A stretch of 64,000 nucleotides of DNA from Adhaeribacter rhizoryzae (GTDB lineage Bacteria > Bacteroidota > Bacteroidia > Cytophagales > Hymenobacteraceae). The DNA is taken from positions 62,001-126,000 of the forward strand of contig NZ_VWSF01000011.1 of the NCBI RefSeq assembly GCF_008629685.1, given 5' to 3'. The stretch's first letter is position 1; every line of letters begins with the position of its first letter. The notes under the pieces are model-generated. The model made no database searches and was not told the DNA's origin. It saw nothing but the letters and a program-made list of their open reading frames with translations. The position numbers and the translations under genes are program-made. Positions 45,601 through 60,692 of this stretch are shown in pieces.

Positions 45601-45960
45601 AAGCGTTCTTTTGTAAGCAGTTGGGTTGTTTGGGTTTCTTATGAAAACGATTAAATCTAATTAAAATTTTCTTCTTTTAGCCCTATTTTACGTTCTGGTT
45701 CTAAATTGTTTTAAAGTATTGAAAGTTTTGGTTTACAGGCCGGTTTACGAAGTAATATTTACAGTTTTATTCTAATATAAAGCCCCTAAAATATTTATCA
45801 GATAGTGGTTTAAAAATTAGAATAATGAAAGTTCGCCTAAAACTTAAAATGCTTTTTGGTAAGTACAAATGAGTGTACAATCATGTTTTGTAAGAAGAAC
45901 GGTAATAAAAAAGGAGCGACTTAATGAAGTTGCTCCTTTTTATGTAACCGATATGGTTAG
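45601..45960. other. intergenic region upstream of the second SusC gene
   Basis: AT-rich. Apart from the terminator at 45907-45941, no gene or recognisable regulatory sequence was seen. No anti-sigma/ECF-sigma pair adjoins this SusC gene in the window. Confidence 0.45.
45907..45941 (-). terminator. terminator after the collagen-like lipoprotein gene
   Basis: Stem aaaaaggagc-g-actt / aagt-t-gctccttttt with one G-U, 4-base loop, T-run on the minus strand. Confidence 0.75.
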
Positions 45961-46578
45961 TTATTTTACTTTTATCTTTTTTACTTTAGCTTCGGTGATA
46001 TTGTAATATTTAGCAACTTCGTTGTAGTCTTTTAAATTAATATTAGGTTTAACAACTCTGCCGTTAACTGGGCTTCCTGGAATAATTACTACTCTGAAGC
46101 CATGGTCATTCAATTGTGCTGGGGTAAGACCGGCCAGAACATTAGCAGCTCCTTCAATAAAGATAAACATAGCTAAATCATTGAAAGCATAATTAAATTT
46201 GTACGGCCCCAAATTAGAGCTAAAATTTTGTGGTAGAGGAGCCCAGATGGGCAGATCACTGTAAGTGCCATAAGCCATATATGTCAGAACCACATCTGTT
46301 TCACCTACTTCAATTGGTTCTTCTAAATCACCAAATTCAAAACCTAACTCGTAACCATCGGCTGCAGTAAAATCCCATGCAAATTCAAAAACTTTAGCAG
46401 TACCGGGTGTACCTGCCGGGCCGGCAGGACCAGCCGGGCCCTGAGCTCCAGGAGCACCTGGCGTGCCTGGATCACCTTTTGGTCCTGGATCGCCTTCCGG
46501 GCCTTTACATGCCTGCCCTAAACCAAGGGCCAAAATCATAAGAAAATGTAAGATTCTAAAATGTAGGATTCTTTTCAT
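45961..46578 (-). CDS. collagen-like repeat lipoprotein
   Basis: 205 aa. Lipobox GQAC (Cys24) followed at once by twelve uninterrupted Gly-X-Y triplets (residues 26-61, for example GDPGPKGDP and GPAGPAGPA), a short collagen triple-helix stalk. A globular C-terminal domain follows (about 62-205; FEFAWDFTAADGYELGFEFGD) that I do not recognise. The form suggests a trimeric surface stalk with heads, perhaps adhesive. It is monocistronic, with its own terminator. Function is unknown. Confidence 0.8.
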   Translation of the reverse strand: MKRILHFRILHFLMILALGLGQACKGPEGDPGPKGDPGTPGAPGAQGPAGPAGPAGTPGTAKVFEFAWDFTAADGYELGFEFGDLEEPIEVGETDVVLTYMAYGTYSDLPIWAPLPQNFSSNLGPYKFNYAFNDLAMFIFIEGAANVLAGLTPAQLNDHGFRVVIIPGSPVNGRVVKPNINLKDYNEVAKYYNITEAKVKKIKVK

Positions 46579-47163
46579 AGTGCCAAGAGTTAGATAAAAC
46601 TTAATGTATATTAAAGATTATTTATCAAACAAAAAAGTACTGACTGTAAACTTTAATGCTTTTGCCTAAAGTTTTGTATTTATTTCAATTTAGGTATCTG
46701 TAAACCTACTTTAAGCCAAATAAATAAATATTCTGGCTTTAACTTTTGAAATATTAATAAAAGGGTGAAACTCTTTAATTTAAAGTGCTCGATAAATATT
46801 CCGGAACTACAACCTGAATATTCCAGAAATGTTCAGACAAATGGGAAATAATAATTAGCGTAGATATTGCTGGCTAATTTTACGCAATTGTAAAAGAAAG
46901 AGGTTTAAGCAATACAAATACATCTCTGTCATTCAGGAGGAAACTATTTAGCAGGTAACCAAATAATTTCCTCCTGAATGACAGAGATGATTTCCTTCGA
47001 CTAAAAACTATTTGTAAGAATATTTTGCGTAATAGCAATTATCGAAGGCAGCATCAAACCAATAAATAATTTAGCGCTGCTATTTAACACTACAGCTTTG
47101 AACAAGGTACCGAGTTTGATAAGCCTGGAGTAAAAAATAAAAACTATTTGCCCCTATTCAGGA
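46579..47163. other. 585-base non-coding region with one strong inverted repeat
   Basis: No ORF, tRNA or recognisable RNA was found. AT-rich, except for the inverted repeat at 46921-46989, which is listed separately. Confidence 0.5.
46921..46989. repeat. 23-bp perfect inverted repeat (ctgtcattcaggagg)
   Basis: Arms 46921-46943 and 46967-46989 are perfect reverse complements; after one mismatch five more pairs follow (tattt/aaata). The word ctgtcattcagga is akin to the gtcatcctga segments at 34318 and 55920. No T-run, and no gene within 170 bases, so it is not an obvious terminator; a dispersed or mobile-type palindrome is more likely. Confidence 0.65.
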
Positions 47164-48066
47164 TTACAGATAAAAATACCCTTCACCAACCAATGCACTT
47201 TTGCCACCTACCTGCACCAATGTTATGTTTTTATTTACTTGCCCAATGGTAATATACAGGAGGCTGGGGCGACCCATTTCGTAACCTTGTTCGCAAATAA
47301 TTTGCGCTTCCGGTTGCGCTGGCACCAACCCATAATGTACCAAATAGCAGCCCAATGGTCCGCAGGCGCTGCCGGTAGCGGGGTCTTCGGGTATGCCAAA
47401 AGCAGGCGCAAACATACGGCCGTGTACGGTATGAGCCGGGTTTTCTGTTTCGGTAGAAAATAGAAAAACACTTTCGGCTCCAATGTGCTTTAACTGGTTT
47501 TCCAGTACATCTTGCCGCAGTTTGGCTTTTTTAACAGCCGCCAAAGACTTAAGCTGCACAAAAAAGAAAGGCACTCCGCACGAAACTACCTGGGTAGGAT
47601 TAGTAGCATCTATATCGGCGGGCGTTAAAGAAAGTAAATCGGCTAGTATCTGCACATCGGTAAAAGTAGCGCCAAACTGGGGTAGCGGTTGCCCCATTGT
47701 AATCAGGTCCAGTTTATCTTCTTTTTTCCTGAAATCTACCGCAATGTCGCCAACGCCTTCTTCAAATATTAGCCGGTTGCCAGTGGGCTTTAAAATATTT
47801 TGCTGCAACAGCACAAAAGCCGTCCCGATGGTAGGGTGTCCGGCCATGGGCAGTTCTTTGCCTGGCGTAAAAATGCGTAGTTTAATATTATTGGTGGGGT
47901 TGGCTGGCGGCAGTACAAAGGTGGTTTCGGAAAGGTTAAGTTCTTTCGCAATTTTTTGCATTAAATATTCCGGTACTTCCTGTCCTTCCGGAAAAACAGC
48001 CAGTTGGTTACCGCCAAATACTTCGTCCGTGAAAACATCGGCTAAATAATAGTGCAGCTTTTTCAA
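47164..48066 (-). CDS. PhzF-family isomerase-like protein
   Basis: 300 aa with the diaminopimelate-epimerase-like fold of PhzF/YddE proteins: N-terminal YYLADVFTDEVFGGNQLAVFP, ETTFVLPP (the Glu of this segment is the proposed catalytic acid), RIFTPGKELPMAGHPTIGTAFVL and the C-terminal FGIPEDPATGSACGPLGCYL. These match the family closely. Outside phenazine producers the reaction is unknown. Start is TTG at 48066. It follows the sulfur operon in the same direction but is separated by a hairpin at 48113-48175. Confidence 0.88.
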   Translation of the reverse strand: MKKLHYYLADVFTDEVFGGNQLAVFPEGQEVPEYLMQKIAKELNLSETTFVLPPANPTNNIKLRIFTPGKELPMAGHPTIGTAFVLLQQNILKPTGNRLIFEEGVGDIAVDFRKKEDKLDLITMGQPLPQFGATFTDVQILADLLSLTPADIDATNPTQVVSCGVPFFFVQLKSLAAVKKAKLRQDVLENQLKHIGAESVFLFSTETENPAHTVHGRMFAPAFGIPEDPATGSACGPLGCYLVHYGLVPAQPEAQIICEQGYEMGRPSLLYITIGQVNKNITLVQVGGKSALVGEGYFYL

Positions 48067-48112
48067 TGTTTTAGTATGTTACGTTTCTGAGATTACAACA
48101 GATAAATAAAAC

Positions 48113-48175
48113 AGAAAACCTGCTTCTCTTCTACCAGCTAAAAAATATTTCCGGTAGAGCAGAATCAGGTTTTCT
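48113..48175 (-). terminator. terminator at the end of the sulfur operon
   Basis: Long imperfect stem: arms 48113-48135 and 48153-48175 (23 bases, three to four mismatches), reading on the minus strand into caggttttctgttttattt. It lies just past the metZ stop. Confidence 0.65.
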
Positions 48176-48185
48176 GAAGAATTAT

Positions 48186-49361
48186 TTAGGCCGAAGCTTG
48201 CAGCGCCTGTTCGATATCCTGGATAATATCGTTAATATTTTCTAAGCCAACCGAAATCCGGATAAGGCCATCAAATATGCCAACGGCTGCCCGTTCATTC
48301 GGGGTTAGTTTAGAGTGCGTCATAGAAGCCGGGTGCGTAACCGTGGTGCGGGTATCGCCCAAGTTGGCCGTTTTAGAGGCAATTTGCAGGGCATCCATAA
48401 ATTTTTGGGCCCGCTCGTAGCCGCCCTTTACTACAAACGTTACAATGCCGCCACCTTGCGTCATTTGTTTTTGCGCCAGTTCGTACTGCGGATGCGATGG
48501 CAACATCGGGTATAAAACCAGTTCCATTTCGACATGTTTATCCAGGTGCTGGGCCAAAGCCAAAGCGTTGCTGCAGTGGCGGTCCATACGTACGGGTAAG
48601 GTTTCGAGGCTCTTTGATAAAATCCAGGCGTTAAACGGCGACAAAGCCGGACCTGTATGGCGGGAGAAAAACCGGATTTCGGAAATTAAATCTTTGCGGC
48701 CCACAATAACACCCCCTAAAACCCGGCCCTGACCATCTATATATTTAGTGGCCGAATGAATAACCAAATCGGCGCCGTACTGGATGGGCGTTTGCAGGTA
48801 AGGCGTAGCAAAACAATTATCAACGCTCAAAATAATATTATGCTTACGCGCCAACTTGCCCAGCCATTCCAGATCTATCAGTTCCAGTTGCGGGTTAGAA
48901 GGCGTTTCAATAAATATCATTTTGGTATTTTCCTGAATCAGGCTTTCCCATTCTTCCGGACGGGCCGCATCAGCGTAAGTACTGGTAATACCCCACTTAG
49001 GCAGTACTCGGGTAAGTAACTGGTGCGAAGAACCAAACACCGATCGGGAGGCCAGAATGTGATCGCCGGCTTGTAATAAAGCGCCAAAACCCGTAAAAAC
49101 CGCCGCCATACCCGATGCAAAAGCAAACCCATCTTCGGCTCCTTCCAGCAAGCACATTTTCTCTATAAACTCCGAGGTATTCGGGTTCGAAAACCGGGAA
49201 TAAATATTGCCTTCCTGCTCATCGGCAAACAAAGCCCGGCCTTGCTCCGCGGATTCAAACGTAAAGCTGGACGTTAAGTACAAAGGTACCGAGTGCTCGC
49301 GGAACTCGGAGCGGGCAGCCTGGGTACGAATGGTTTGCGTTTCTTTATTCTTATTTTTCAA
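48186..49361 (-). CDS. metZ: O-succinylhomoserine sulfhydrylase
   Basis: PLP enzyme making homocysteine from O-succinylhomoserine and sulfide, the step that uses the product of sulfite reductase. 391 aa, Cys/Met-metabolism PLP family: NIYSRFSNPNTSEF, FASGMAAV, IETPSNPQLELIDL, and the PLP lysine in SATKYIDGQGR (Lys206). The GQGRVLGG context and length favour MetZ over cystathionine synthase/lyase. Start is TTG at 49361. Last gene of the sulfur operon; the 135 bases ahead of it include a word-repeat block. Confidence 0.9.
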   Translation of the reverse strand: MKNKNKETQTIRTQAARSEFREHSVPLYLTSSFTFESAEQGRALFADEQEGNIYSRFSNPNTSEFIEKMCLLEGAEDGFAFASGMAAVFTGFGALLQAGDHILASRSVFGSSHQLLTRVLPKWGITSTYADAARPEEWESLIQENTKMIFIETPSNPQLELIDLEWLGKLARKHNIILSVDNCFATPYLQTPIQYGADLVIHSATKYIDGQGRVLGGVIVGRKDLISEIRFFSRHTGPALSPFNAWILSKSLETLPVRMDRHCSNALALAQHLDKHVEMELVLYPMLPSHPQYELAQKQMTQGGGIVTFVVKGGYERAQKFMDALQIASKTANLGDTRTTVTHPASMTHSKLTPNERAAVGIFDGLIRISVGLENINDIIQDIEQALQASA

Positions 49362-49451
49362 TTTAATTCAGGTTTAAAGTGATAAAAATAGTTGAAGGTT
49401 AAACCTTCAGTTCCTTTAACAGGCAATATTTAATTTATAAGTAATATTCAA

Positions 49452-49500
49452 AGTCTAATATCGAGCGTCTAATATCTAACATCCAATATCCAACATCTAA
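49452..49500. repeat. single-sided array of tctaatatc/atccaatatc words
   Basis: Five to six degenerate direct copies of (g/a)tctaatatc and catccaatatc between metZ and the fusion gene. No inverted partner was seen. It belongs to the word-array class. Confidence 0.45.
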
Positions 49501-51047
49501 AACACCGAAGTGTAAATATTGCGCAGGCTAAGGATAATTACAACCAGACCTACAATTATCATCATGGTTTTAACGGGCAGCCGGCGGGCAATAAGAGCAG
49601 CAAACGGGGCAGCTACGGTGCCGCCTAGTACCAAGCCCAGCACTACTTGCCAATGCGAAAAGCCAATTAGGGTGATAAATGTTACAGAGCTCGCAAACGA
49701 CACAAAGAACTCGGTTAGGTTTACGGACCCAATGGTATACATGGGGTGCCGACCACTGGCAATAAGCGAAGAGGAAACAATTGGTCCCCAGCCGCCGCCC
49801 CCTACCGAATCGAGGAAGCCCCCGGTTACGGCCAATAAGCCCATTTTGCGAATCTTTCTTTTCTTTATGGTTCGCCGGATAGCTTTGCGAATTATAATAA
49901 ACCCGAGCACCAAGGTATAAATAGCTACCAAAGGCTTAATTATATGGGCGTATTCTTCGGCCGAAGTTAAAATATAGGCACCCAAAATAGCGCCCAAAAC
50001 CCCGGGCAGCAGCAAGGTTTTAAATAATTTGTTGTTTACGTTGCCGAAGCGCAAGTGCATTAAACCCGATACGCCGCTGGTAAATATTTCGGAGGCGTGT
50101 ACACTGGCACTTACGGCTGCCGGCGGAATACCAAACGAAAGCAGAAAAGTAGTTGCGCTTACACCGTACGCCATTCCCAGTGCGCCATCAATCATTTGGG
50201 CAATAAAACCGGCCAGCATAAAATACAAAATATCCGACTCAATACTGCCGGCAGCTTCCATCGCGTAGCCGCCAATAGTTGCTAAAGGAATAAAGCTGAA
50301 GAGCAAGTGCCCGAGAATCATTAAGGCAATGGCCGAAAACCCTATGAGCACCCGGTAACGCCAGCTATGCCGGATAAAAGGTACTTTTTGCGTGGTAATG
50401 GCGGTTGGTGGTACTGGTGGGGTAGGTGTTGCGGGAGCTACATCGGGAGCCAGCGAAGCCGTTACTGCGTTCAGTTGTTTAACTTTTTCGGCAAAATCGC
50501 CGGTTAAAGTAGTCCGAATGCGCTCAATATTTTGCAGCAGGCTATCCATTTCGGGCGGAAAGGTTTCGTTTAAAACTTCTTTTACCCGTTTGGCTACCGT
50601 CGGCGATTTGCCGTTGGTAGAAATAGCAATTTTTAAATTCCCTTTCTGAACAATCGAACTCAGGTAAAAATCACATTCCTGCGGCGTATCGGCTACGTTG
50701 GCTAATATTTTGCGGGCTCGGGCTACCTGTTTTACGTAGGTATTCACGCCTTTATCGTTGGTGGCCGCAATAACCAGGTCTTTGCCATTTAAATCGGTTT
50801 CTTCGAAAGGCTTTTGAATTAAGGTGAGTTTGGGGTATTGGGCCGCTAAGTCGATAATCTCAGTACGGATTTCGGGTGCTACTAAGGTTATGGTGGCCTC
50901 CGGGCTGTTGCGTAAAACGGCCGTAAGTTTTTCTTCGCCTACAAAACCGCCGCCAACTATCAGGGTATGCAAATCATGTAATTTCAGAAAAACCGGAAAT
51001 AAGTGGTTTTCTGCGGCGGAAGTTTTCTGCTCGGTTTCGGTTAACAC
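49497..51047 (-). CDS. siroheme synthase (CysG-B) / TauE-SafE exporter fusion
   Basis: 516 aa, two unrelated domains. Residues about 12-200: precorrin-2 dehydrogenase/ferrochelatase domain, with FLKLHDLHTLIVGGGFVGEEKL (NAD site), FEETDLNGKDLVIAATND and STNGKSPTVAKRVKEVL, the siroheme-forming half of CysG. A Pro/Thr-rich linker (about 195-220) leads to an eight-helix TSUP (sulfite exporter TauE/SafE) domain, about 225-516, with IAQMIDGALGMAYGVSATTFLLSFGI and GGFLDSVGGGGWGPIVSSSLI. One chain could supply siroheme to sulfite reductase and handle sulfite or sulfate across the inner membrane. Start is GTG at 51047. Confidence 0.88.
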   Translation of the reverse strand: MLTETEQKTSAAENHLFPVFLKLHDLHTLIVGGGFVGEEKLTAVLRNSPEATITLVAPEIRTEIIDLAAQYPKLTLIQKPFEETDLNGKDLVIAATNDKGVNTYVKQVARARKILANVADTPQECDFYLSSIVQKGNLKIAISTNGKSPTVAKRVKEVLNETFPPEMDSLLQNIERIRTTLTGDFAEKVKQLNAVTASLAPDVAPATPTPPVPPTAITTQKVPFIRHSWRYRVLIGFSAIALMILGHLLFSFIPLATIGGYAMEAAGSIESDILYFMLAGFIAQMIDGALGMAYGVSATTFLLSFGIPPAAVSASVHASEIFTSGVSGLMHLRFGNVNNKLFKTLLLPGVLGAILGAYILTSAEEYAHIIKPLVAIYTLVLGFIIIRKAIRRTIKKRKIRKMGLLAVTGGFLDSVGGGGWGPIVSSSLIASGRHPMYTIGSVNLTEFFVSFASSVTFITLIGFSHWQVVLGLVLGGTVAAPFAALIARRLPVKTMMIIVGLVVIILSLRNIYTSVF

Positions 51048-51183
51048 GTATTTAATTTTTGTTCCGCCCTTACCTTTCCTGGGTGAAGAAAGGTAGGTTT
51101 AAAAGGGCAGGAAGATGATTTAGGGTAATCTGTCTAATATTTTGCCTTTGATACTAAAAGCCAAATTCACTTGCTTGTTACTT

Positions 51184-51756
51184 TTATATTGAATTTATAA
51201 CCGGTTGCTCATTGGTAATGGTTTCCAGCAAAGACTGCATTAATGTATCAAGCTCCTTGGCGGTTAACGCATCGGAAATATTGCCTTGGGTTTTAATTTT
51301 GCTAATTTTGCTTCTGGCTCCCGAAATTAACAGTTTAGCGTGCTCGCCAATTTTTGCGCCTAAAGTATTCATAATCAAAATTAAGGCTTCATAAGCTTTT
51401 TCGCCTTGCCCCGAAGCCACAATTAAAGCAGCCGGCTTACCGGAGAAAATAGTAGTGGATACGGTCCATTCCAGCGCATTTTTTAATACACCAGGTAAGC
51501 TAAACACGTATTCGGGGGTGCAAATAATAATGCCATCAGCCGCTTCTATTTCCGCCCGCAATTTTCTGACACTAACCGGAAGGTTTTCGTTATCTAAGTC
51601 GGGGTTGAAGTGGGGTAGCTCGGCAAGGCCGTTATAAAGCTGAATATCCAGGGTTTCTTTATAACGTTCAGCTAAATAGCTTAGAAGCAATTCGTTTACA
51701 GAATTACTTCTAAGACTACCTGAAACTGCTAATATTTTCTTTCGGATTATTGCCAT
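51184..51756 (-). CDS. NADPH-dependent FMN reductase
   Basis: 190 aa flavodoxin-like reductase: N-terminal VSGSLRSNSVNELLL (FMN phosphate loop), DGIIICTPEYVFSLPGVLKNALEW (the PEY..S.PG..KNA.DW motif of the family). It lies 51 bases after the sulfite reductase stop and before the siroheme fusion gene. It may feed electrons or reduced flavin to the sulfur pathway, but it also fits a general quinone/chromate reductase; context makes the former attractive, not proven. Confidence 0.87.
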   Translation of the reverse strand: MAIIRKKILAVSGSLRSNSVNELLLSYLAERYKETLDIQLYNGLAELPHFNPDLDNENLPVSVRKLRAEIEAADGIIICTPEYVFSLPGVLKNALEWTVSTTIFSGKPAALIVASGQGEKAYEALILIMNTLGAKIGEHAKLLISGARSKISKIKTQGNISDALTAKELDTLMQSLLETITNEQPVINSI

Positions 51757-51807
51757 TTAAGTTGATTTAACGCTTTCTAAACCGAAATAAAATAAAGATT
51801 TATAAGC

Positions 51808-53946
51808 TTAAGCGTTTACTTTTAATATTTCGGTTAATACATCGGGCCGTCTTACTTCCGCGCCGCGGTGCGCACTGGCCGCTTCCAGAAAACGGAAAGC
51901 ATCGGCTAAATAGCTGGCCGCAAAATCTGCCGAAGGCTCGTTCTGGTTAATTTGCATTACATGCGTTTTAAAATCCGGCTCAAACGTGAAAGTACCGTCT
52001 TTTACAAAGTTGGTGTCAAAATCATTGATAATACCAATCTGGGTGTTGCCGCTCAGGCCTTTGGCTAATAAAAGCGCTTTGGCTGTACCTACAAACACAC
52101 TGTAGCTGTAATAAATAGCATCGGCATAAGCGCCTTGTTTTAAGGCTTCGGCTGCCCATTCGGCTTTTTCTTCCGAATCAAACAGCAAAGTAGCTACTAA
52201 GTCAATCATTACGCCGGCACATTCGCCTACACCAATGGCGGTAACAAATTCTTCTACGTGGCCCCAATCTACATAGTCGCCCGGCTGTAGTTTGGTTAAA
52301 TCGGCCAATGGCTTTAATAATTGGTAGAAATAATTTTTGCCCTGGCGGTCGTAATATTGATTAAATAATTCGCCTTCCTGGCCGTTGGCTTCAAAATCGT
52401 TGAACAAGGTGCGCAGAATATCCGGGCCTTTCTTGGTAGGTACTTTAACTACCCGTTCGGCCAAACGACCTTCGCCGTCGGACACCGTGCCCCCGCCCAA
52501 CATTACTTGTAAAGCCGGAATAACGTTGGTGCCATGTTTAATAGAGCTGCCGTGGAAACCAATCTGGGCCAGACCGTGCTGCCCGCAGGAGTTCATACAA
52601 CCGCTTATTTTTATATTAATATCGTTGTTGTAAATTAAATCCGGATATTCATCTAGCATCATTTTTTCCAATACCTCGGCCAGGTTCATGCTGTTGGTAA
52701 TACCTAAATTACAGGTATCGGTGCCAGGGCAGGTGGTAATATCGGTAGTGCTGTTAAAACCAGGCAAAGCAAAACCTAAGGTATCGAGCACGTGAAATAC
52801 ATAAGGCAACGCTTCTTTGCGGATATATTTAAACAACAAGCCCTGGTTAGGTGTAATCCGCACATCGTCGGCGGCGTAATCTTTAACCAGTTGGGCCAAT
52901 ATTCTTGCTTTATCGGTAGGGATATCGCCTTTTAATACCCGCACCCAAACCGCGTAAAAACCTTTTTGCTTTTGCTCTACCACATTGGTTTTTAACCAAT
53001 CTTGGTAATGCTTCTGGTTTAATATTTCTACGGCCGGTACTTCTTTTTCCGGCGCGGGGTCAGCCTGTGGTACGCTGTTGCGGTCGAATACGTACGATTT
53101 GGTTTTAATGGCAGTACGTTCCTGGGCCACTAATTCCATAAAAGCATCAAAGCCAATTTTCTGAATCAGGTATTTCATGCGGGCCTTGTTGCGGCTCACA
53201 CGCTCGCCGTGGCGGTCAAAAACCCGGATTACAGCTTCAATTAACGGAATAACCTGGTCTTCGGGCAAAAACTCGTAAGCAGTGTAAGCCAGCATCGGCT
53301 GGGCACCTAAACCGCCACCCACTTTAACTTTAAAACCGCGCACTTCTTCGCCGTTCTGTATTTGTACTTTGGGTATTAATCCAATATCGTGGATGTAAGA
53401 AAAAGCCGTGTCTTCGTCGCTGGAAGAAAAAGCAATTTTAAATTTGCGGCCCATTTCCTGACAAATAGGGTTGCGCACAAAATATTGAAAGGTTTGGTGC
53501 GCGTACGGCGATACATCAAATGGCTCGTTCGGGTCGATGCCGGCGTTAGGCGAAGCCGTAACGTTACGTACGGTATTACCGCAGGCTTCGCGCAGGGTAA
53601 TATCATCGTGGGCTAATTTCTCCCAAAGTTCAGGCGTGCGATCCAGGCTCACAAAGTGAATCTGAATATCCTGGCGGGTAGTTAAGTGCAGGTTTTTAGA
53701 CGCATATTCATCCGAAACATCGCAAATACGGTACCACTGCTTTACTGTAAGCCGGCCAAACGGCAGCTTAATGCGTACCATTTGCACGCCCGGCTGGCGC
53801 TGGCCGTAAATACCCCGGGTTAACCGCAGGCTCCGGAATTTTTCTTCGGGCATTTGGCCGCCCCGGAACATCCGTATTTTTTTATCTAAATCGATAATTT
53901 CTTTCTGAACTATCGGGTTTTCTAACTCGGAACGAAAACTAAGCAT
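51808..53946 (-). CDS. siroheme [4Fe-4S] nitrite/sulfite reductase, with C-terminal extension
   Basis: 712 aa. Two ferredoxin-like half-domains and siroheme/[4Fe-4S] ligands Cys406, Cys412 (TCPGTDTC) and Cys450, Cys454 (SGCMNSC). HLTTRQDIQIHF (87-98) and NVTASPNAG are typical of the NirA/CysI family. The sulfur-operon setting makes sulfite the likely substrate. About 130-170 residues beyond the catalytic part (from about 540) are helical, with a block GAYADAIYYSYSVFVGTAKALL that resembles a HEPN-type helical domain; usual enzymes end near 550-600. ATG at 53946 follows a leader with two Cys-rich small ORFs and hairpins. Confidence 0.88.
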   Translation of the reverse strand: MLSFRSELENPIVQKEIIDLDKKIRMFRGGQMPEEKFRSLRLTRGIYGQRQPGVQMVRIKLPFGRLTVKQWYRICDVSDEYASKNLHLTTRQDIQIHFVSLDRTPELWEKLAHDDITLREACGNTVRNVTASPNAGIDPNEPFDVSPYAHQTFQYFVRNPICQEMGRKFKIAFSSSDEDTAFSYIHDIGLIPKVQIQNGEEVRGFKVKVGGGLGAQPMLAYTAYEFLPEDQVIPLIEAVIRVFDRHGERVSRNKARMKYLIQKIGFDAFMELVAQERTAIKTKSYVFDRNSVPQADPAPEKEVPAVEILNQKHYQDWLKTNVVEQKQKGFYAVWVRVLKGDIPTDKARILAQLVKDYAADDVRITPNQGLLFKYIRKEALPYVFHVLDTLGFALPGFNSTTDITTCPGTDTCNLGITNSMNLAEVLEKMMLDEYPDLIYNNDINIKISGCMNSCGQHGLAQIGFHGSSIKHGTNVIPALQVMLGGGTVSDGEGRLAERVVKVPTKKGPDILRTLFNDFEANGQEGELFNQYYDRQGKNYFYQLLKPLADLTKLQPGDYVDWGHVEEFVTAIGVGECAGVMIDLVATLLFDSEEKAEWAAEALKQGAYADAIYYSYSVFVGTAKALLLAKGLSGNTQIGIINDFDTNFVKDGTFTFEPDFKTHVMQINQNEPSADFAASYLADAFRFLEAASAHRGAEVRRPDVLTEILKVNA

Positions 53947-53983
53947 TGGTATATTCTTTTTATTAGTTTCTTATTTAAACAGT

Positions 53984-54013
53984 AAAGCCTTTCTGGTTTA
54001 GCAGAAAGGCTTT
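53984..54013 (-). terminator. second (proximal) attenuator hairpin of the sulfite reductase leader
   Basis: Perfect 12-base arms (54013-54002 and 53995-53984, minus strand) with a 6-base loop; only a short U stretch (uuuacuguuu) follows, so it is a weaker terminator. The 5' arm aagcctttctg can instead pair along 11 bases with cagagaggctt (54059-54049), which lies in the small ORF just after its Cys codons. Confidence 0.65.
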
Positions 54014-54027
54014 TACACTAGTTGCTT

Positions 54028-54084
54028 TTAAAAAGTAAAAGCATCATCAAGCCTCTCTGCCGAATTGCGGCAGCAACAACACAT
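54028..54084 (-). CDS. 18-aa leader peptide MCCCCRN..., cysteine sensor
   Basis: ATG at 54084 followed by four consecutive Cys codons (TGT TGT TGC TGC), then CGC, 12 more codons and TAA at 54030-54028. Peptide MCCCCRNSAERLDDAFTF. The Cys-Arg codons overlap ctgccg (54073-54068), which can pair with cggcag (54062-54057); the latter overlaps the antiterminator strand 54059-54049. Stalling at the Cys codons would free that strand to pair with the 5' arm of the hairpin 54013-53984 and let transcription continue into sulfite reductase. The reading frame is chosen for the Cys run; longer ATG-started frames on this strand overlap it. Confidence 0.72.
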   Translation of the reverse strand: MCCCCRNSAERLDDAFTF

Positions 54085-54136
54085 TGCATCTTCTCTTAAA
54101 AAGCTTGTCATCTTCTTTTTTATAGCTTTAAAAAAC

Positions 54137-54173
54137 AAAAAGTCTTTCCTGGTTATATGAGGAAAGACTTTTT
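54137..54173 (-). terminator. first (distal) attenuator terminator of the sulfite reductase leader
   Basis: Perfect 13-base arms (54173-54161 and 54149-54137), 11-base loop, then a strong U-run (uuuuuguuuuuu) on the minus strand. It sits inside the leader, about 190 bases before the gene, so it can only be a regulated terminator or an end of a short leader RNA. Its 5' part (54169-54159) can pair instead with 54213-54203. Confidence 0.8.
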
Positions 54174-54202
54174 AAAGTTTTATAGTTTTGTGCTATATAT
54201 AT

Positions 54203-54280
54203 AACCTTCCCTCACGCAAGCGCCATACAACACATACAACATGCCTGGCAGTTGTAGTTAGATAGAACGGAAGAAAGGTT
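54203..54280 (-). promoter_or_regulatory. antiterminator and competing strands of the first attenuator
   Basis: Minus-strand gagggaaggtt (54213-54203) can pair over 11 positions, three of them G-U, with agtctttcctc (54169-54159), the 5' part of the terminator. The same strand can pair over 11 positions (two G-U) with aacctttcttc within 54280-54269, upstream of the small ORF. Such mutually exclusive pairings are the hallmark of attenuators. Read by eye only. Confidence 0.6.
54212..54235 (-). CDS. 7-aa leader peptide MCCMALA
   Basis: ATG TGT TGT ATG GCG CTT GCG TGA, from 54235 to 54212. Two Cys and an internal Met follow the start. The TGA overlaps the beginning of the antiterminator strand (54213-54203): a ribosome that reaches the stop would cover it and allow the terminator at 54173-54137, while a ribosome paused on the Cys codons would leave it free. 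The geometry and the similarity to the MCCCC ORF downstream support it. A 20-codon frame starting at 54242 overlaps it in another frame and is less likely. Confidence 0.6.
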   Translation of the reverse strand: MCCMALA

Positions 54281-54590
54281 GATTAAGGTCATTGTTATTT
54301 AAATATTTCTGTAAAGATAAATTGCCTATACGACTTTTCCGCCTGTTTAGCTAAAAAAGTTTAATATTTTACTTTATTAGTTACAGAATATTTAATAGAT
54401 AAGCCTAATCAGCGCTAAGCAAAGCAGGTGAATTAATTAATTTGGGAAGTATCAGTTAAAAATTAAAAAGTTTACAAGGGAAAAATTACTATGGCCGTTG
54501 TAATTGTAATAGTAAAAAAATATTTAGAGTCGGACTTTTGCGGGGTTGTTGCGTAAGCCTAACCATGCCTTTAAGTCTATTTATTAATAT
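54281..54590. other. divergent promoter region between the sulfur operon and kynU
   Basis: About 310 bases without an ORF; AT-rich with several TTTAATATTTTA-like tracts. The promoters of the sulfite reductase leader (leftward) and of kynU (rightward) must lie here. No clear -33/-7 pair was recognised. Confidence 0.45.
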
Positions 54591-55862
54591 ATGAATTACC
54601 AGAATACCTTAGATTTTGCCCGAGATTTAGATCGCCAGGATACGTTACAGCATTTCCGGGACCAGTTTTATATACCGCCGGTAAACAACAAAGATTCCAT
54701 TTATTTATGCGGAAATTCGCTGGGGCTACAGCCTAAAACCGCCCGGGCCGCTGCCGAACAGGAATTTTTGGATTGGCAGAATTTAGGGGTAGAAGGTCAT
54801 TTTCATGGTACCAATCCGTGGCTGCACTACCACGAATATTTGCAGGAAAAAGAAGCACGCGTAGTTGGCGCGCGCCCCGAAGAAGTAGTGGTAATGAATA
54901 ACCTGACTACCAACCTGCACCTGATGCTGGTTTCTTTTTACCGGCCAACCCCCTTGCGCTACAAAATAATTACCGAAGCAGGCGCTTTCCCTTCGGACCA
55001 ATATGCCCTCGAAACCCAAGCAAGATACCACGGCATGGACCCCGAAGAAGCCATTATTGAGCTAATTCCCCGACCCAGCGAACATATTTTGCGCACCGAA
55101 GATATTTTAGCAGCTATCCGGGAACATGCCCGCGATCTGGCCCTGGTTATGATGGGCGGCATTAATTATTATACCGGGCAGGTTTTCGACATGGCGGCTA
55201 TTACCCAAGCCGGCCACGAAGCCGGTGCGCAGGTAGGGTTTGATCTGGCCCATGCCGCCGGCAATATTTTGCTAAACCTGCACGACTGGAACGTAGATTT
55301 TGCGGTGTGGTGCACTTATAAATATATGAACTCCGGCCCTGGCGGCGTAGCAGGCACGTTTGTGCACACCCGGCACGGCAATACTCCGGGTATACCCCGC
55401 TTTGGCGGCTGGTGGGGCCACAACAAAGAAGAACGTTTTCAGATGCGCAAAGGCTTTAAACCCATGCCGGGCGCTTCCGGCTGGCAGTTAAGCAATGCTT
55501 CTATCTTTCCCATGGCTATTCACAAAGCTTCTCTGGATATTTTTGATGCGGCTACCATGCCGGCCTTACGCGCTAAAAGTGAAAAGCTGACCGGTTATTT
55601 AGAATATTTAATCAACCAGATAGGCGCTTCGCCGGAAATATTAGAAATTATTACGCCGCATGACCCGGCCTGGCGCGGTTGCCAGTTATCGTTGCTGGTG
55701 CATAAAAACGGCCGCCAGGTATTCGAGAAACTTACCCAAGCCGGCGTTATTCTGGATTGGCGCGAGCCCAACGTTATCCGGGTAGCTCCCACGCCGCTTT
55801 ATAATACTTTTGAAGATGTTTTTTGCTTTGCCGAAATATTGCGCAAGAGTTTGGAATATTAA
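54591..55862 (+). CDS. kynU: kynureninase
   Basis: PLP enzyme that cleaves (3-hydroxy)kynurenine to (3-hydroxy)anthranilate and alanine. 423 aa with YLCGNSLGLQPK (38-49), GEGHFHGTNPWLHYHE-type N-terminal block, GAFPSDQYAL, GFDLAHAAGNI (Asp218 holds the PLP ring), PLP lysine in WCTYKYMNSGPGG (Lys244) and the C-terminal VILDWREPNVIRVAPTPLYN. Full length. It is the middle step between kmo (59310) and haaO (37318). Confidence 0.95.
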   Translation: MNYQNTLDFARDLDRQDTLQHFRDQFYIPPVNNKDSIYLCGNSLGLQPKTARAAAEQEFLDWQNLGVEGHFHGTNPWLHYHEYLQEKEARVVGARPEEVVVMNNLTTNLHLMLVSFYRPTPLRYKIITEAGAFPSDQYALETQARYHGMDPEEAIIELIPRPSEHILRTEDILAAIREHARDLALVMMGGINYYTGQVFDMAAITQAGHEAGAQVGFDLAHAAGNILLNLHDWNVDFAVWCTYKYMNSGPGGVAGTFVHTRHGNTPGIPRFGGWWGHNKEERFQMRKGFKPMPGASGWQLSNASIFPMAIHKASLDIFDAATMPALRAKSEKLTGYLEYLINQIGASPEILEIITPHDPAWRGCQLSLLVHKNGRQVFEKLTQAGVILDWREPNVIRVAPTPLYNTFEDVFCFAEILRKSLEY

Positions 55863-56175
55863 ACGCTAATAATACTAAATAGTAAATATTACCTTCCATA
55901 AAATAACACATTATTGTTGTCATCCTGTAAGGATCTTTTGGTTAGAAAATTAAGTAGGTAATATGCCTTTATCTGTAGTTGCCTGTAAGGTCATTTAAAC
56001 AATAGATTTTTTCAAAATGACAGAGAGAGGGTTGTTATAGAAGAAAACTAATACTATTTGGTATAAATTGGTTAGATCTTGGATAAAACAGCTGGCGGCG
56101 GCGCGTTGAGCCAAAAGAAATTAGTGGTGCCTGGTTTTGGTTATTATACCGGAAAATTAAGTTCTGGTAAAAATA
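55863..56175. other. intergenic region with a degenerate 'gtcatcctg' repeat
   Basis: 313 bases. gttgtcatcctgtaaggatc (55917-55936) and a distant reverse-sense caaaatgacagagag (56014-56028) look like a decayed copy of the palindromic repeat class seen at 46921. A 67-codon ORF at 56079-56282 overlaps the ogt gene on the other strand and is not supported. Confidence 0.4.
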
Positions 56176-56673
56176 TTACCCAAACAACGTTAACTGGTGC
56201 GTGCCGTTTATTTTGCGCTCGTGGGCCAGCAGCCATTTTTTTCGCCACAAGCCACCCGCGTAGCCTACCAATTGTCCGTTAGCACCAATAACCCGGTGGC
56301 AGGGCCGGATTAGCAATAATTTGTTTTTACCGTTGGCGCTGCCCACTGCCCGAATAGCACCTAAATTGCCTAGTTGCACTGATAAATCGTAGTAAGATAA
56401 CGTTTGCCCAAAGTTAATTTTTTCGAGTTGGTGCCACACCTGCTCCTGAAAATTAGTGCCGGCCGAAGCAACGGGTAGTTCAAAGGTTTTACGCTCACCC
56501 GCAAAATATTGGTTTAACTGTTGCAGGCAATCTGTTAGGCAAATTGGTAAATTGGGCGCGTTGGGTTGCGCAGTTTCTTCCGTAAACAGCACCGATACAA
56601 TGGCTTCTTCCGTAGCTGTTATTTCTACCGTGCCGATAGGAGAAAGATAATAAGCCCGAAATATTTTTTCCAT
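56176..56673 (-). CDS. ogt: methylated-DNA--protein-cysteine methyltransferase
   Basis: Suicide repair of O6-methylguanine. 165 aa: N-terminal ribonuclease-like domain (about 1-75) and C-terminal DNA-binding domain with FQEQVWHQLEKINFGQTLSYYDLS, AIRAVGSANGKN (arginine finger region) and the acceptor cysteine in IRPCHRVIG (Cys125). The residue before PCHR is Arg where Val/Ile is usual; this should not abolish activity. It is divergent from alkB, 74 bases away, so the two alkylation-repair genes may share control. Confidence 0.92.
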   Translation of the reverse strand: MEKIFRAYYLSPIGTVEITATEEAIVSVLFTEETAQPNAPNLPICLTDCLQQLNQYFAGERKTFELPVASAGTNFQEQVWHQLEKINFGQTLSYYDLSVQLGNLGAIRAVGSANGKNKLLLIRPCHRVIGANGQLVGYAGGLWRKKWLLAHERKINGTHQLTLFG

Positions 56674-56747
56674 TCGTATCCTGTTTTGGTGAATAATAGC
56701 AGCAAGATAATTATACCAACGAAAAATAAAACAAATTTGGTCAGGAA

Positions 56748-57332
56748 ATGAAAACGCAGTTATGCATGCCTAATGCCAAAATTTATTTCTGGTCGCAGTT
56801 TTTTAGCCCGGTGCAGAGCAATTATTACCTGACCGAACTTATTGACACAGTGGCCTGGCAGCAAGATAAAATAAAAATGTTTGGCAAAGAGCTACCGCTG
56901 CCGCGTTTAACCGCCTGGTACGCCGACCCTGGCAAAAGTTACCGTTATTCCGGCATTACCAATATACCTTTGCCTTGGCTGCCTGTTTTATTGCCCCTGA
57001 AAGAAGCGGTTGAGGCGGCCGCCGGCCATACTTTTAACAGTGTACTGCTAAATTATTACCGCCAGGGGCAAGACAGCATGGGCTGGCACAGCGACGATGA
57101 ACCCGAACTAGGCCAAAATCCAGTTATTGCCTCCGTTTCGTTTGGGCAAACCAGGCGCTTCGATTTCCGCTACCGGCACGATAAAAATATTCCAAAGCAA
57201 TCAATCTGGCTAGAAAACGGCAGTTTACTTTTAATGCAAGGCCCAACCCAGCATTACTGGCAGCACCAAGTGCCAAAAGCTACTAAATTAACCCAACCCC
57301 GCCTTAATCTTACTTTCCGGGAGATAAAATAA
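56748..57332 (+). CDS. alkB: AlkB-like DNA dioxygenase
   Basis: 2OG-Fe(II) oxygenase removing alkyl groups from damaged bases. 194 aa, in the shorter AlkB/ALKBH2-like class. PRLTAWYADPGKSYRYSG, FNSVLLNYYRQGQDSMGWHSDDE (iron ligands His114, Asp116), VSFGQTRRFDFR, the distal His in HQVPK (His173) and PRLNLTFR (Arg185, Arg191 for 2OG and substrate). Intact. Pairs functionally and in position with ogt. Confidence 0.92.
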   Translation: MKTQLCMPNAKIYFWSQFFSPVQSNYYLTELIDTVAWQQDKIKMFGKELPLPRLTAWYADPGKSYRYSGITNIPLPWLPVLLPLKEAVEAAAGHTFNSVLLNYYRQGQDSMGWHSDDEPELGQNPVIASVSFGQTRRFDFRYRHDKNIPKQSIWLENGSLLLMQGPTQHYWQHQVPKATKLTQPRLNLTFREIK

Positions 57333-57640
57333 ACCTTTAAGCGCCTAATTAAAACCTAAGGGGCCACTTTCCCGAATAAATGGTTTCGAAAATAAACAAC
57401 CTGATACCCAGTAGGGTTGGCCCAAGTTAAGAATACGCATTGCAACCAGTATAAAGCGCTCTATCGTATGTGCAGTTTTAAATTAAGAATCTGAAGTGGT
57501 GTTAAGCCGTTGGGTAATAAGCTACCGCTATTGCCACCGGACAACCTTGAATTAAAATAATAATCGGAAATAAATGTTAAACCTGCGGGTGCTTTAAGAT
57601 AGCTAAAAAAGCAGCGTAGTACTTACTTAATGCTTTTTAT
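57333..57640. other. 308-base intergenic region upstream of the GH1-like gene
   Basis: No ORF, RNA gene or strong hairpin was seen. Confidence 0.45.
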
Positions 57641-58855
57641 ATGAAACCAATCAGTCAATTCATGTTTGCCACCGGCATCGAGAATAGTTATCCGAACATA
57701 ATCTTGCCGGATGGTACCGTAAAACGGGTAGATGAGATGGAGAAAGCCAACCACTACGAGCGCTGGCGCGAGGATTTTAACCTGGTAAAAGAAATGGGTA
57801 TTGAGTTTTTGCGCTACGGACCACCCTTTTACTCGGTTTTTGAAGGTCCGGGGCGGTACAACTGGGATTTTACCGACGAAACGTTTAATGCCCTGAAAGA
57901 AATGAATATTATCCCGATTGTGGACCTTTGCCACTTTGGGATGCCTAACTGGCTGGGTAATTTCCAGAACCCCGATTTCCCGGCTTACTTTGCGGAGTAC
58001 GCGCTAGCGTTTGCCCGCCGGTACCCATATTTGCAGTTTTATACGCCTATTAACGAGATATTTATTACGGCAATGTTCTCGGCCCAATATGGCTGGTGGA
58101 ACGAGTGTTTGGCCAGCGACCGGGCTTACGTTACGGCTTTAAAAAATTTATGTAAAGCCAATGTGCTGGCAATGGCAGCAATTATGCGGGTGCAGCCCGA
58201 TGCTATTTTCATACAAAGCGAGTCGTCGGAATATTTCCATGCCGAAGACCCAAGTTGTTCTAAGCTGGCCCATTTCCTGAATCAAAAGCGTTTCTTGTCA
58301 CTCGATTTAACCTACGGTTATCCTATTTCGGCTGAAATGTTTTTGTATTTGCAGGACAATGGCATGACCCGTGAAGAGTACCAGTGGTTCCGCGATAACC
58401 AGGTTAAAGCCCATTGTATTATGGGTAACGATTATTATTATACCAACGAGCACATGGTGCACCCCAACGGAACCACCAGTGCCTCCGGCGAAATATTTGG
58501 TTACTACGTTATTACGCACCAATATTACCGCCGCTACCGCCTGCCGGTAATGCACACCGAAACCAACATGATTGAACCCAACTCCGTGGGTTGGCTGCGC
58601 AAAGAATGGGCCAACGCCAAACGCCTCAAACGCGACGGTATTCCATTAGTTGGTTTTACCTGGTACAGCCTCATCGACCAGGTAGACTGGGATTCGGCGC
58701 TGCGCAACGATGCCGGTAATATTAATGCCTTGGGTCTGTACGACATGGACCGTAATATTCGGGCTGTTGGTAAAGAGTACAAGAAAATAATTAAGCAATG
58801 GAGAGGCGTATTGCAGGAAGAAAGCTACGGCCTGCACTTTAACCATTATTTATAA
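57641..58855 (+). CDS. GH1-like glycoside hydrolase
   Basis: 404 aa TIM-barrel protein of the family 1 glycosyl hydrolase type. The acid/base glutamate is in TPINE (Glu139) and the nucleophile in VMHTETN (Glu307); YGPPFYSVFEGPGRYNWDF and GFTWYSLIDQVDWDSAL correspond to substrate-binding strands. It lacks a signal peptide, so it works in the cytoplasm, and it is shorter than typical beta-glucosidases (about 450 aa). No transporter or regulator is next to it. Substrate unknown. Confidence 0.82.
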   Translation: MKPISQFMFATGIENSYPNIILPDGTVKRVDEMEKANHYERWREDFNLVKEMGIEFLRYGPPFYSVFEGPGRYNWDFTDETFNALKEMNIIPIVDLCHFGMPNWLGNFQNPDFPAYFAEYALAFARRYPYLQFYTPINEIFITAMFSAQYGWWNECLASDRAYVTALKNLCKANVLAMAAIMRVQPDAIFIQSESSEYFHAEDPSCSKLAHFLNQKRFLSLDLTYGYPISAEMFLYLQDNGMTREEYQWFRDNQVKAHCIMGNDYYYTNEHMVHPNGTTSASGEIFGYYVITHQYYRRYRLPVMHTETNMIEPNSVGWLRKEWANAKRLKRDGIPLVGFTWYSLIDQVDWDSALRNDAGNINALGLYDMDRNIRAVGKEYKKIIKQWRGVLQEESYGLHFNHYL

Positions 58856-59000
58856 GACTGGTCTAGCTTCGTAGGTTAAATTTACCACCCCCAGCCCCTC
58901 CTAAAATAGGCGGGGAGCCCGGCCAACGGATGTTCTATGGGTTAATGCAAATAGTGAAAGCTTTTCACATATTTAAATATTAAACCGAAAAGCAGCAGCT

Positions 59001-59130
59001 ACGAAGCAAACGACAGCAGTTTGGGCGATGAGGGCCTTTCAGGTTTCCGGTGCGCAGCATTGCGAGGTACGAGCAAAGGAAAGATGAGCAGCCCGAATGA
59101 CCAAACGGGCCCCGCCGGGCAGGAGGCAAC
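59001..59130 (+). ncRNA. candidate structured RNA or dispersed GC-rich repeat
   Basis: Distinctly GC-rich against its AT-rich surroundings. Possible pairing: tttgggc (59020-59026) with gcccgaa (59091-59097), a cgca/tgcg hairpin (59053-59056, 59061-59064), ctttc (59036-59040) with gaaag (59079-59083), and a gccc/gggc hairpin (59109-59112, 59117-59120). GATGAG occurs just inside the first helix on its 5' side and ATGAG on its 3' side. No Rfam family recognised. The strand is a guess, based on the terminator that follows on the plus strand. Confidence 0.35.
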
Positions 59131-59190
59131 TTAGGCTTATAAATTCAGTTAGCACCTAGCCATTGAAAGATGTAATCTTTCAAAAGGAAA

Positions 59191-59230
59191 AATAAAAATA
59201 CCCGACTCAAGTAAGCCGGGTATTTTTATT
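59191..59230 (+). terminator. terminator upstream of kmo
   Basis: Perfect 14-base arms (59191-59204 and 59217-59230), 12-base loop, T-run. It would end transcription from the GH1-like gene or from a transcript of the GC-rich segment. Confidence 0.8.
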
Positions 59231-59309
59231 TAAGAATATCGAGGTACCCGGCTAATATTTTAAATTTATATCTTTACCAGTAACAAAAGCATCTGCTCAT
59301 ACCAAAGGC

Positions 59310-60692
59310 ATGTCAAGAAGAGAACATATTACCGTAATGGGGGGCGGATTGGTTGGCTGCCTCATGAGTTTATACCTAGGTAAAAAAGGGTATAAAGTAG
59401 ATTTATACGAGCGCAAACCCGACCTGCGGAAAGCTTACAAAGAATACGGCCGTTCCATTAACCTGGCTCTCAGCGACCGCGGCTGGAAAGCCCTGAATGG
59501 CATTGGCATTGGCGACGAAATCCGGAAAGTAGCCATTCCCATGTACGGCCGCATGATTCACGATTTGCAGGGTAAGCTAAGTTTTCAGCCTTACGGCAAA
59601 GAAGGGCAGGCCATTTATTCAGTTTCACGGGGCGGGTTAAATATTGCCTTGCTCGATTTGGTAGAGGCCGAGCATAATATTACCCTGCACTTTAGCAAAC
59701 AATGCGAACGCGTAGACTTGAAAACCAATGAAGTGCACCTGCGCGATTCGGCTACCGGCGAAGAATCAGTAATTCATGCCGATCGCTTGTTTGGTGTGGA
59801 TGGTGCTTATTCGATGGTGCGCTACTCCATGCAAAAAACTGAGCGGTTTGATTTTTCGCAATGCTATTTGAACTACGGCTACAAAGAATTAACTATTAAG
59901 CCCGGGCCTTTTGGGCGGTGGTTGCTGGAGAAAGAAGCTTTGCATATTTGGCCGCGTGGTAATTTTATGATGATTGCCTTGCCCAACCTGAACGGTAGCT
60001 TTACCTGTACCTTGTTTTACCCCTACGAAGGCCACGAATCGTTTGCCAACCTGAAAACCGAAAGCGATGTAAAGCGGTTTTTTAAGAAGCAATTTCCGGA
60101 TGCTATGCCCCTGATGCCAAACCTGGTAGATGAATTCTTTAAGAATCCGGTCGGCGATTTGGTTACCATTCGGTGTTTTCCGTGGGCTTTTCAGGATAAA
60201 GTTTTGTTGCTGGGCGATGCCTCGCACGGTATTGTGCCTTTTTACGGCCAGGGCATGAACGCTGGCTTTGAAGATTGTACGGTTTTTAACGATTTGCTAA
60301 ACGAGCATACCGGCGACTGGCATACTATTTTCGATAAGTTTCAGAAAATACGTAAACCCGATACCGATGCCATGGCCGATTTGGCTATCTATAACTTTCT
60401 GGAAATGCGCGATAAAGTGGCCGACCCACGGTTTTTGTTACAGAAAAAAATAGAAAGTAAAATAAGTACTTTGTATCCGGAACATTGGCTGCCACTTTAC
60501 TCCATGGTAACCTTTAGCGATATTTCTTACGCCCAGGCCAAAGCCGCCGGCGAACGCCAGGAACAAATAATGGCCCAAATAATGCCGCAAATTCAATCCG
60601 AAGCTGATTTTGACAAGCCGGGAGTGCAAAATTTAATCCGGCAGCAAATATTGGGCAACGACGATTTAGTTAAAAGCAGCACAAAGCCCTGA
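59310..60692 (+). CDS. kmo: kynurenine 3-monooxygenase
   Basis: FAD hydroxylase turning kynurenine into 3-hydroxykynurenine. 460 aa. FAD motif VMGGGLVGCLMSLYLGKKGY (9-28), YKEYGRSINLALSDRGWKAL (substrate-arginine region of KMO), VDGAYSMVRYSM, and LLGDASHGIVPFYGQGMNAGFEDC. The C-terminal region lacks an obvious membrane anchor helix, as in other bacterial forms. A downstream small membrane-protein gene starts two bases after its stop. Confidence 0.93.
   Translation: MSRREHITVMGGGLVGCLMSLYLGKKGYKVDLYERKPDLRKAYKEYGRSINLALSDRGWKALNGIGIGDEIRKVAIPMYGRMIHDLQGKLSFQPYGKEGQAIYSVSRGGLNIALLDLVEAEHNITLHFSKQCERVDLKTNEVHLRDSATGEESVIHADRLFGVDGAYSMVRYSMQKTERFDFSQCYLNYGYKELTIKPGPFGRWLLEKEALHIWPRGNFMMIALPNLNGSFTCTLFYPYEGHESFANLKTESDVKRFFKKQFPDAMPLMPNLVDEFFKNPVGDLVTIRCFPWAFQDKVLLLGDASHGIVPFYGQGMNAGFEDCTVFNDLLNEHTGDWHTIFDKFQKIRKPDTDAMADLAIYNFLEMRDKVADPRFLLQKKIESKISTLYPEHWLPLYSMVTFSDISYAQAKAAGERQEQIMAQIMPQIQSEADFDKPGVQNLIRQQILGNDDLVKSSTKP

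Follow-up and report, generated by a model that had tools for sequence, protein, structure and literature searches.

The gene sir (53946-51808) is preceded on the minus strand by a leader of ~350 nt, which separates it from a divergent plus-strand gene (54591-55862). Two short Cys-rich open reading frames (ORFs) follow each other in this leader, and a hairpin is found 3′ of each. The question raised by this locus is whether one leader carries two attenuators for the same amino acid, as a preliminary description of the sequence had proposed. "The window" refers here to the whole 64,000 nt stretch of DNA that was analysed, and all positions are those of the window. The features of the leader, and of the operon behind it, are the following.

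54312..54319, minus strand: promoter-like -7 box TATCTTTA, predicted; TAnnTTT[AG] is found at the same place in 8/8 aligned leaders of the genus
54212..54292, minus strand: leader ORF 1, MTLINLSSVLSNYNCQACCMCCMALA, 26 aa, ATG start; in-frame counterparts in 8/8 leaders of the genus
54204..54215, minus strand: strand 2 of cassette 1 (antiterminator); it overlaps the stop codon of ORF 1 and can pair with the 5′ side of hairpin 1
54130..54174, minus strand: strands 3 and 4 of cassette 1, forming a predicted intrinsic terminator hairpin with a 14-pair stem and a U-run
54028..54111, minus strand: leader ORF 2, MTSFLREDAMCCCCRNSAERLDDAFTF, 27 aa; counterpart in 7/8 leaders of the genus
54048..54061, minus strand: strand 2 of cassette 2 (antiterminator); it can pair with the 5′ side of hairpin 2
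53984..54013, minus strand: strands 3 and 4 of cassette 2, forming a hairpin that resembles a terminator, with a weak U-run in this strain
51808..53946, minus strand: sir, nitrite/sulfite reductase hemoprotein (NIR_SIR), first gene of the operon; Pfam PF01077 and PF03460 above cut-off
51184..51756, minus strand: NADPH-dependent FMN reductase family gene; Pfam PF03358 above cut-off
49497..51047, minus strand: fusion of a siroheme synthase N-terminal domain with TauE/SafE; both TIGR01470 and PF01925 score above cut-off
48186..49361, minus strand: O-succinylhomoserine sulfhydrylase family gene; NF006003 above cut-off

Both Cys ORFs are present on the minus strand as initially described, with the correction that their starts had been misplaced. 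The peptide MCCMALA is the tail of the 26-aa ORF 1 (54292-54212), and the 18-mer beginning MCCCC is the tail of the 27-aa ORF 2 (54111-54028). The five Cys codons of ORF 1 lie within 54250-54227, and those of ORF 2, four in a row, at 54081-54070. The ATG of ORF 1 is ~20 nt downstream of the promoter-like -7 box, the predicted start region. A box of the TAnnTTTG type is taken here to be the Bacteroidota -7 box; a simple consensus scan found no sigma-70-type promoter.

Folding bears out the hairpin assigned to each ORF, with a strong U-run behind the first and a weak one behind the second. Hairpin 1 (about 54174-54136) has a loop of 9 and a predicted energy of -16.2 kcal/mol. Hairpin 2 (54013-53984) folds at -15.9 kcal/mol, and its U-poor tail ACTGTTTAAA fails the U-tract rule. 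It stops 37 bases upstream of the sir start codon, which is left uncovered, and in this strain it may be a strong terminator or rather a pause or translation element. The proposed pairing of a strand just past the Cys codons with the 5′ part of the downstream hairpin was confirmed for both cassettes. It amounts to -12.9 kcal/mol in cassette 1, where shuffles average -6.9 (p 0.005), and to -20.2 kcal/mol in cassette 2, where they average -9.2 and 0/1000 match it. The further claim, that an earlier strand (strand 1) can pair with strand 2, gives p 0.037 and 0.017 in the window, but a p of 0.05 or less is reached in only 5/17 cassettes tested; this element is weakly conserved. Strand 1 of cassette 1 is upstream of the position expected for a stalled ribosome.

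Terminators were called by a rule that asks for a stem of at least 7 pairs, a loop of 3-12, -9 kcal/mol or lower and a U-rich tail. In a simple scan the only terminator-like sites are elsewhere (54878-54852) and not at the two leader hairpins; the loop limit of 8 in that scan shuts out hairpin 1, and its U rule is unsuited to hairpin 2. No Rfam element reached gathering score between positions 45000 and 60000 of the window, five leader peptides had no match in NCBIfam, and ten ORFs of at least 20 aa are listed in the spacer on both strands. The hairpins were also considered as the terminator of an upstream gene, which is unlikely because the nearest upstream gene (54591-55862, plus strand) is divergent; the next listed minus-strand gene upstream starts at 56673.

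To what extent such ORFs arise by chance can be judged from 4000 dinucleotide shuffles of the 346-nt leader. An ATG ORF with at least four Cys in six codons occurs twice in the leader, and not one was found in any of the shuffled leaders (0/4000). With a looser limit of three in six, 1.95% of the shuffles had at least one ORF and 0.05% had two. The same looser limit was applied to the 500 nt before sir across genomes, 189 distinct regions after 3 of 192 were dropped as duplicates. At least one Cys ORF is found in 69 of these, and two or more in 20. The reverse strands of the same 189 regions gave 5 and 0, and shuffled regions gave means of 5.0 and 0.05, respectively. Chance ORFs are ruled out by the shuffles together with the reverse-strand control. 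It should be noted that the 500-nt limit misses ORFs further up, such as the first ORF of L037, and that many sir starts were shifted by script to an in-frame ATG, those of L165 and L176 being uncertain. A sir match is present in 210 genomes of the order, from which 16 new loci (L160-L175) and 59 stretches were read beside the earlier ones.

The comparison of orthologous leaders that the preliminary description had proposed shows that the Cys codons are conserved in the genus of the window. By the three-in-six limit a Cys ORF is present in 8/8 sir leaders of the genus (cassette 1) and a second one in 7/8 (cassette 2). The remaining leader, L004 (1321-1500), has cassette 1 only and offers a natural single-cassette comparison. 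In a second genus of the same family, termed here Pontibacter-type after leader peptides common to Botryobacter and Pontibacter records, 21/22 leaders have at least one Cys ORF and 12/22 have two; in the 22nd, L037, the Cys ORF is further upstream. Among other families the frequencies range from 4/7 (f5), 4/6 (f18), 4/4 (f14) and 1/1 (f4) to 1/8 (f15) and 1/21 (f19). By the same limit and within 500 nt, none was found in f11 (0/29), f20 (0/4), f16 (0/1) and f22 (0/1). Two Cys ORFs, with terminators behind both, are found in one f5 leader (L014). Two f18 leaders (L205, L208) have an extra ORF that falls just short of the limit and comes with a terminator and an antiterminator of its own. Named public genomes, mostly of Pedobacter and Mucilaginibacter, have a Cys ORF in 25/77 cases and two in none.

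A few other motifs were observed upstream of sir. In several families (L019, L096, L129, L174, L177, L209, L210, L212) a different leader peptide is found, with a conserved R-C/R-A/E-C-W-F/H-W-C-C core (CWFWCC type); 7/8 of these leaders have a terminator and an antiterminator at p 0.045 or less. The conserved aromatic residues of this peptide suggest that it may do more than count Cys. Behind one leader ORF each, L174 and L209 show by eye two successive terminator-like hairpins with U-runs. The second cassettes of Pontibacter-type leaders (e.g. L044, ~62-84 nt before sir) carry a recurring hairpin of the GCGCAGCC-N-GGCCGCGC type with no adjacent U-run. Close to where the second poly-Cys ORF ends, a GGCAUGCGC stretch was noted by eye that could pair with the 5′ arm of that hairpin.

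Structural conservation in the genus of the window is strongest in the first cassette. A terminator is called by the rule in 8/8 first and 6/7 second cassettes, the exception being the second cassette of the window itself; the U rule for hairpin 2 is passed in 6/6 other genus members that have a cassette 2 (L003, L005-L009). The alternative pairings that had been predicted for orthologous leaders are likewise found in all first cassettes (antiterminator p of 0.05 or less in 8/8), with significance in only 3/7 second cassettes; those of L005-L008 are weak (p 0.07-0.205). The stem of cassette 1 covaries, and the covariation count covers first-cassette stems. Its 14 pairs are 93.8% paired over 8 sequences, and three pairs have changed on both sides. 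In 500 shuffles none reached the observed pairing or covariation score and 6 reached the number of double-changed cells; as many as three double-changed pairs occurred in 42, and the observed number of pair types in 228. Changes in the antiterminator strand are also matched on the hairpin's loop side, a part that is free of stem constraint (UGAGG/CCUCA, GCAGG/CUGC). Across all loci a terminator was called by the rule in 51/94 cassettes. Together with the second cassette of the window these make up 52 cassettes, many of them related and not 52 independent events. An antiterminator p above 0.05 was obtained in 23/52, many of which are the single cassettes of Pedobacter and Mucilaginibacter records. 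No terminator was called by the rule in Pontibacter-type poly-Cys sir leaders, and none was seen by eye downstream of metY or ferredoxin-like leader ORFs.

Strand 2 starts 8-16 nt past the last Cys codon in 42/52 cassettes, and in 24/29 of those with an antiterminator p of 0.05 or less, compared with 20.8% of shuffled segments (taken from 9 cassettes, the script having missed a tenth). Stop codons in the 52 cassettes lie anywhere from 6 to 75 nt from the last Cys. The spacing follows the Cys codons and not the position of the stop, which fits the expectation that the leading edge of a ribosome stalled at Cys sets the boundary. Among the exceptions are L209 and L210, which have a peptide in common; L209 shows an earlier terminator that was skipped by the rule. 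Cross-pairing between cassettes is weaker than the pairing within each in L001, L003 and L009. In L005-L008 strand 2 of the first cassette pairs with the second arm more strongly than the second cassette does with itself, and in L014 each of the two cross pairings exceeds the pairing within the cassette; therefore the cassettes may not be independent in these leaders.

Attenuators of the trp/his type have a leader ORF rich in codons for the sensed amino acid and a 1-2-3-4 scheme of alternative pairings. The sir leader resembles them in its short ORFs rich in the sensed codon, its competing 2:3 and 3:4 pairings, its intrinsic terminator and the amino-acid genes downstream. It differs in having two full cassettes for the same amino acid and a poorly conserved strand 1, and in its occurrence in Bacteroidota. 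It is best read as working like a trp-type attenuator, the sequence features of which are found save for strand 1 and for the weak second U-run of this strain. A single leader transcript would start from one promoter just upstream of ORF 1. When Cys-tRNA is short, a ribosome translating either ORF would stall on the Cys run, and its leading edge would leave free the strand beginning ~8-16 nt downstream; PMC3641672 puts the reach of the ribosome at 12-15 nt, counted from the P site. By base-pairing to the terminator's 5′ arm, the free strand would let RNA polymerase read on. With ample Cys-tRNA the ribosome would move onto or past that strand, the terminator would form and transcription would end. 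Since RNA polymerase would have to clear both cassettes, sir and the sulfide-using genes behind it would be made only when cysteine is scarce. The two cassettes would combine multiplicatively, leaking less and responding more steeply than a single one.

Two ribosome-mediated cysteine attenuators in series on one leader transcript are probable, judging from the sequence comparison, the stall geometry and other poly-Cys leaders of sulfur operons, which also support the attenuator interpretation first put forward for this leader. Counting against the series are L004, which manages with one cassette, and the many sir genes that have no such leader. The lack of cassette 2 in L004 also favors a role as transcription attenuator for cassette 1 only, with cassette 2 serving in translation control or as a pause site, or decaying in this strain. 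The weak U-run behind hairpin 2 of the window and the weaker second antiterminators of L005-L008 point the same way. However, the hairpin 2 U-runs of L003 and L005-L009 pass the rule, the second antiterminator of the window is the stronger of the two (-20.2), and hairpin 2 ends too far from the sir start codon to cover it. We regard this alternative as rather unlikely, while giving it more weight than any of those that follow.

Stalling at the Cys run could also act with no intrinsic termination at all, by controlling Rho access or the translation of sir. Such roles have been proposed for mycobacterial poly-Cys ORFs in PMC1262725 (Rho control) and PMC13236596 (translation control). The Pontibacter-type sir leaders, which have poly-Cys ORFs and no terminator by the rule, and the sulfhydrylase leader ORFs, behind which none is seen by eye, would agree with this. 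In the genus of the window, however, a U-run terminator and a competing pairing are conserved, and such control is improbable here. Several of the Cys-rich peptides are conserved, and the CWFWCC type recurs in other families, as might be expected of functional peptides with a role in metal or redox binding, with incidental hairpins. But it is the Cys run that is kept while the rest of the peptide varies, the spacing between this run and an RNA strand is fixed, and the five leader peptides have no NCBIfam match; we consider a function of the peptides themselves very improbable. Short ORFs are common in A/T-rich spacers, and ordinary hairpins could accompany them by chance; against the shuffles, the reverse-strand control, the conservation and the covariation, the probability of this is negligible. 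Two cysteine attenuators in series remain the preferred reading.

The genes behind the leader make or use the sensed amino acid, and the initial statement that they use sulfide for Cys/Met synthesis agrees with the Pfam and NCBIfam assignments of the NIR_SIR reductase, siroheme synthase and homoserine sulfhydrylase. Eleven NCBIfam families match the sir product, all below their cut-offs, and the NIR_SIR gene is taken as a sulfite reductase because of its operon. The own genome was scanned with the poly-Cys pattern TGYTGYTGYTGY, which gave 97 matches, 84 frame readings and 12 distinct closed ATG ORFs of less than 70 aa. A regulon reading covers five of those 12 ORFs, that of the window included, which were traced to genes, and leaves aside 61 matches of the pattern TGYTGYNNNTGYTGY. 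Inspection of the poly-Cys ORF of L152/L293 gave no result.

Beyond sir, short ATG ORFs with Cys runs are thus found at four further places in the own genome. The first is before a CysH operon (NF002537 above cut-off), with a terminator and an antiterminator (p 0.005). Another precedes a TrxB-like flavoprotein (NCBIfam below cut-off), presumably a ferredoxin-NADP reductase, that adjoins a 2Fe-2S ferredoxin-like protein (also below cut-off). A third is before genes for O-acetylhomoserine sulfhydrylase (TIGR01326), MetX (NF001209) and homoserine dehydrogenase (NF004976), all above cut-off. The last is upstream of a TonB-receptor-like gene (below cut-off), beyond which a peroxiredoxin-like gene was recognised by eye. 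Its poly-Cys ORF MKKIVLNTHSDSCSAANSLTSCCCCYFA (G000:C12:1198-1284; L289:599-685) is 41 nt upstream of the TonB-receptor-like gene, and no terminator was seen between the two. In the genus, by the three-in-six limit, a poly-Cys ORF precedes the sulfhydrylase gene in 7/8 cases, the ferredoxin-reductase-like gene in 5/7 and CysH in 3/8. One of the three CysH cases is ~1.4 kb upstream (L299), four CysH loci have no poly-Cys ORF in 1500 nt, and the L298 locus is too short to read. The sulfhydrylase leader peptides keep a Cys-rich tail, whereas the rest of their sequence diverges. The arrangement before sir seems to be part of a wider set of cysteine-sensing leaders.

Some of these leaders also contain a SAM riboswitch. 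A match above gathering score was found in 22/22 Pontibacter-type sir leaders (L010-L013, L032-L049) and in 8/8 metY/sulfhydrylase leaders of the genus (L311-L318), and in all of these the riboswitch ends 2-9 nt before the ATG of a Cys-rich ORF. These ORFs have 33-49 aa and 3-11 Cys, mostly at or near the C-terminal end. Ten other loci of the same two scans had no match, including the sir leaders L003 and L005 from the genus of the window, and the SAM (S-box) riboswitch RF00162 is likewise absent at gathering score from positions 45000-60000 of the window. A poly-Cys ORF is the first ORF behind 1/2 S-boxes of the own genome, in six of 40 further S-box regions chosen from members of the order and class (one of them 68 nt away), and in none of the 30 best-scoring S-box matches of the phylum. 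An ORF with a Cys-rich tail was also seen behind S-boxes in G011, G054, G537 and G556.

The layout suggests a two-input RNA logic, in which SAM may gate translation of the Cys ORF. If this is true, the output of the riboswitch would be an attenuator ORF, and expression would occur only when SAM and cysteine are both low. A Cys-codon leader regulon with composite logic for sulfur assimilation in Bacteroidota of this group, made up of serial attenuators at sir and, in the Pontibacter-type genus and at metY in the genus of the window, a SAM-riboswitch-gated Cys sensor, is put forward tentatively, at somewhat under an even chance. No description of a SAM riboswitch with a Cys-rich ORF was found among the literature matches listed, which are open-licence papers available in part.

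Related systems are known in other bacteria. The title of Canestrari 2020 reportedly calls the poly-Cys ORFs of mycobacteria leaderless. In the part of Seliverstov 2005 (PMC1262725) at hand, runs of Cys codons precede cysteine operons in mycobacteria, as they do here, and no conserved terminator hairpins are reported; the sir leader differs in its intrinsic terminators, its two copies and its unrelated phylum. Another is uORFC-8-2 before cysS of Rhodobacterales, described in PMC8632094 as a predicted Cys-codon attenuator with an intrinsic terminator, both of which are also predicted for the sir-leader cassettes. That element is a single cassette with two conserved Cys codons before cysS, whereas here the first gene is NIR_SIR and the phylum another. 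Two leader ORFs in one leader are also found in Salmonella mgtCBR, which, according to PMC3641672, senses different signals (ATP and proline) with stem-loops unlike intrinsic terminators; the sir leader would sense one amino acid twice. Tandem riboswitches for the same ligand, e.g. TPP pairs, are given as more digital switches in PMC2258182; these bind a ligand, and the sir leader depends on leader peptides. For Flavobacterium, PMC9723704 mentions strong clues of attenuation before amino-acid operons.

Single Cys-codon leaders have been described or predicted in other bacteria (PMC8632094, PMC1262725), and tandem leader ORFs are known for two different signals (PMC3641672). Neither a doubled leader-peptide attenuator for one amino acid nor poly-Cys leaders in Bacteroidota were found among the literature matches listed, again open-licence papers available in part, and the accessible sections of PMC2965389, PMC3766115 and PMC9723704 mention neither. 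In the literature searchable here, as far as its text was available, amino-acid attenuation is little described in Bacteroidota. A conserved doubled attenuator would lend itself to testing what cells gain from identical switches in tandem, such as less leak and a steeper response, and with a Cys-codon regulon no regulator protein need be invoked to account for cysteine sensing in these bacteria.
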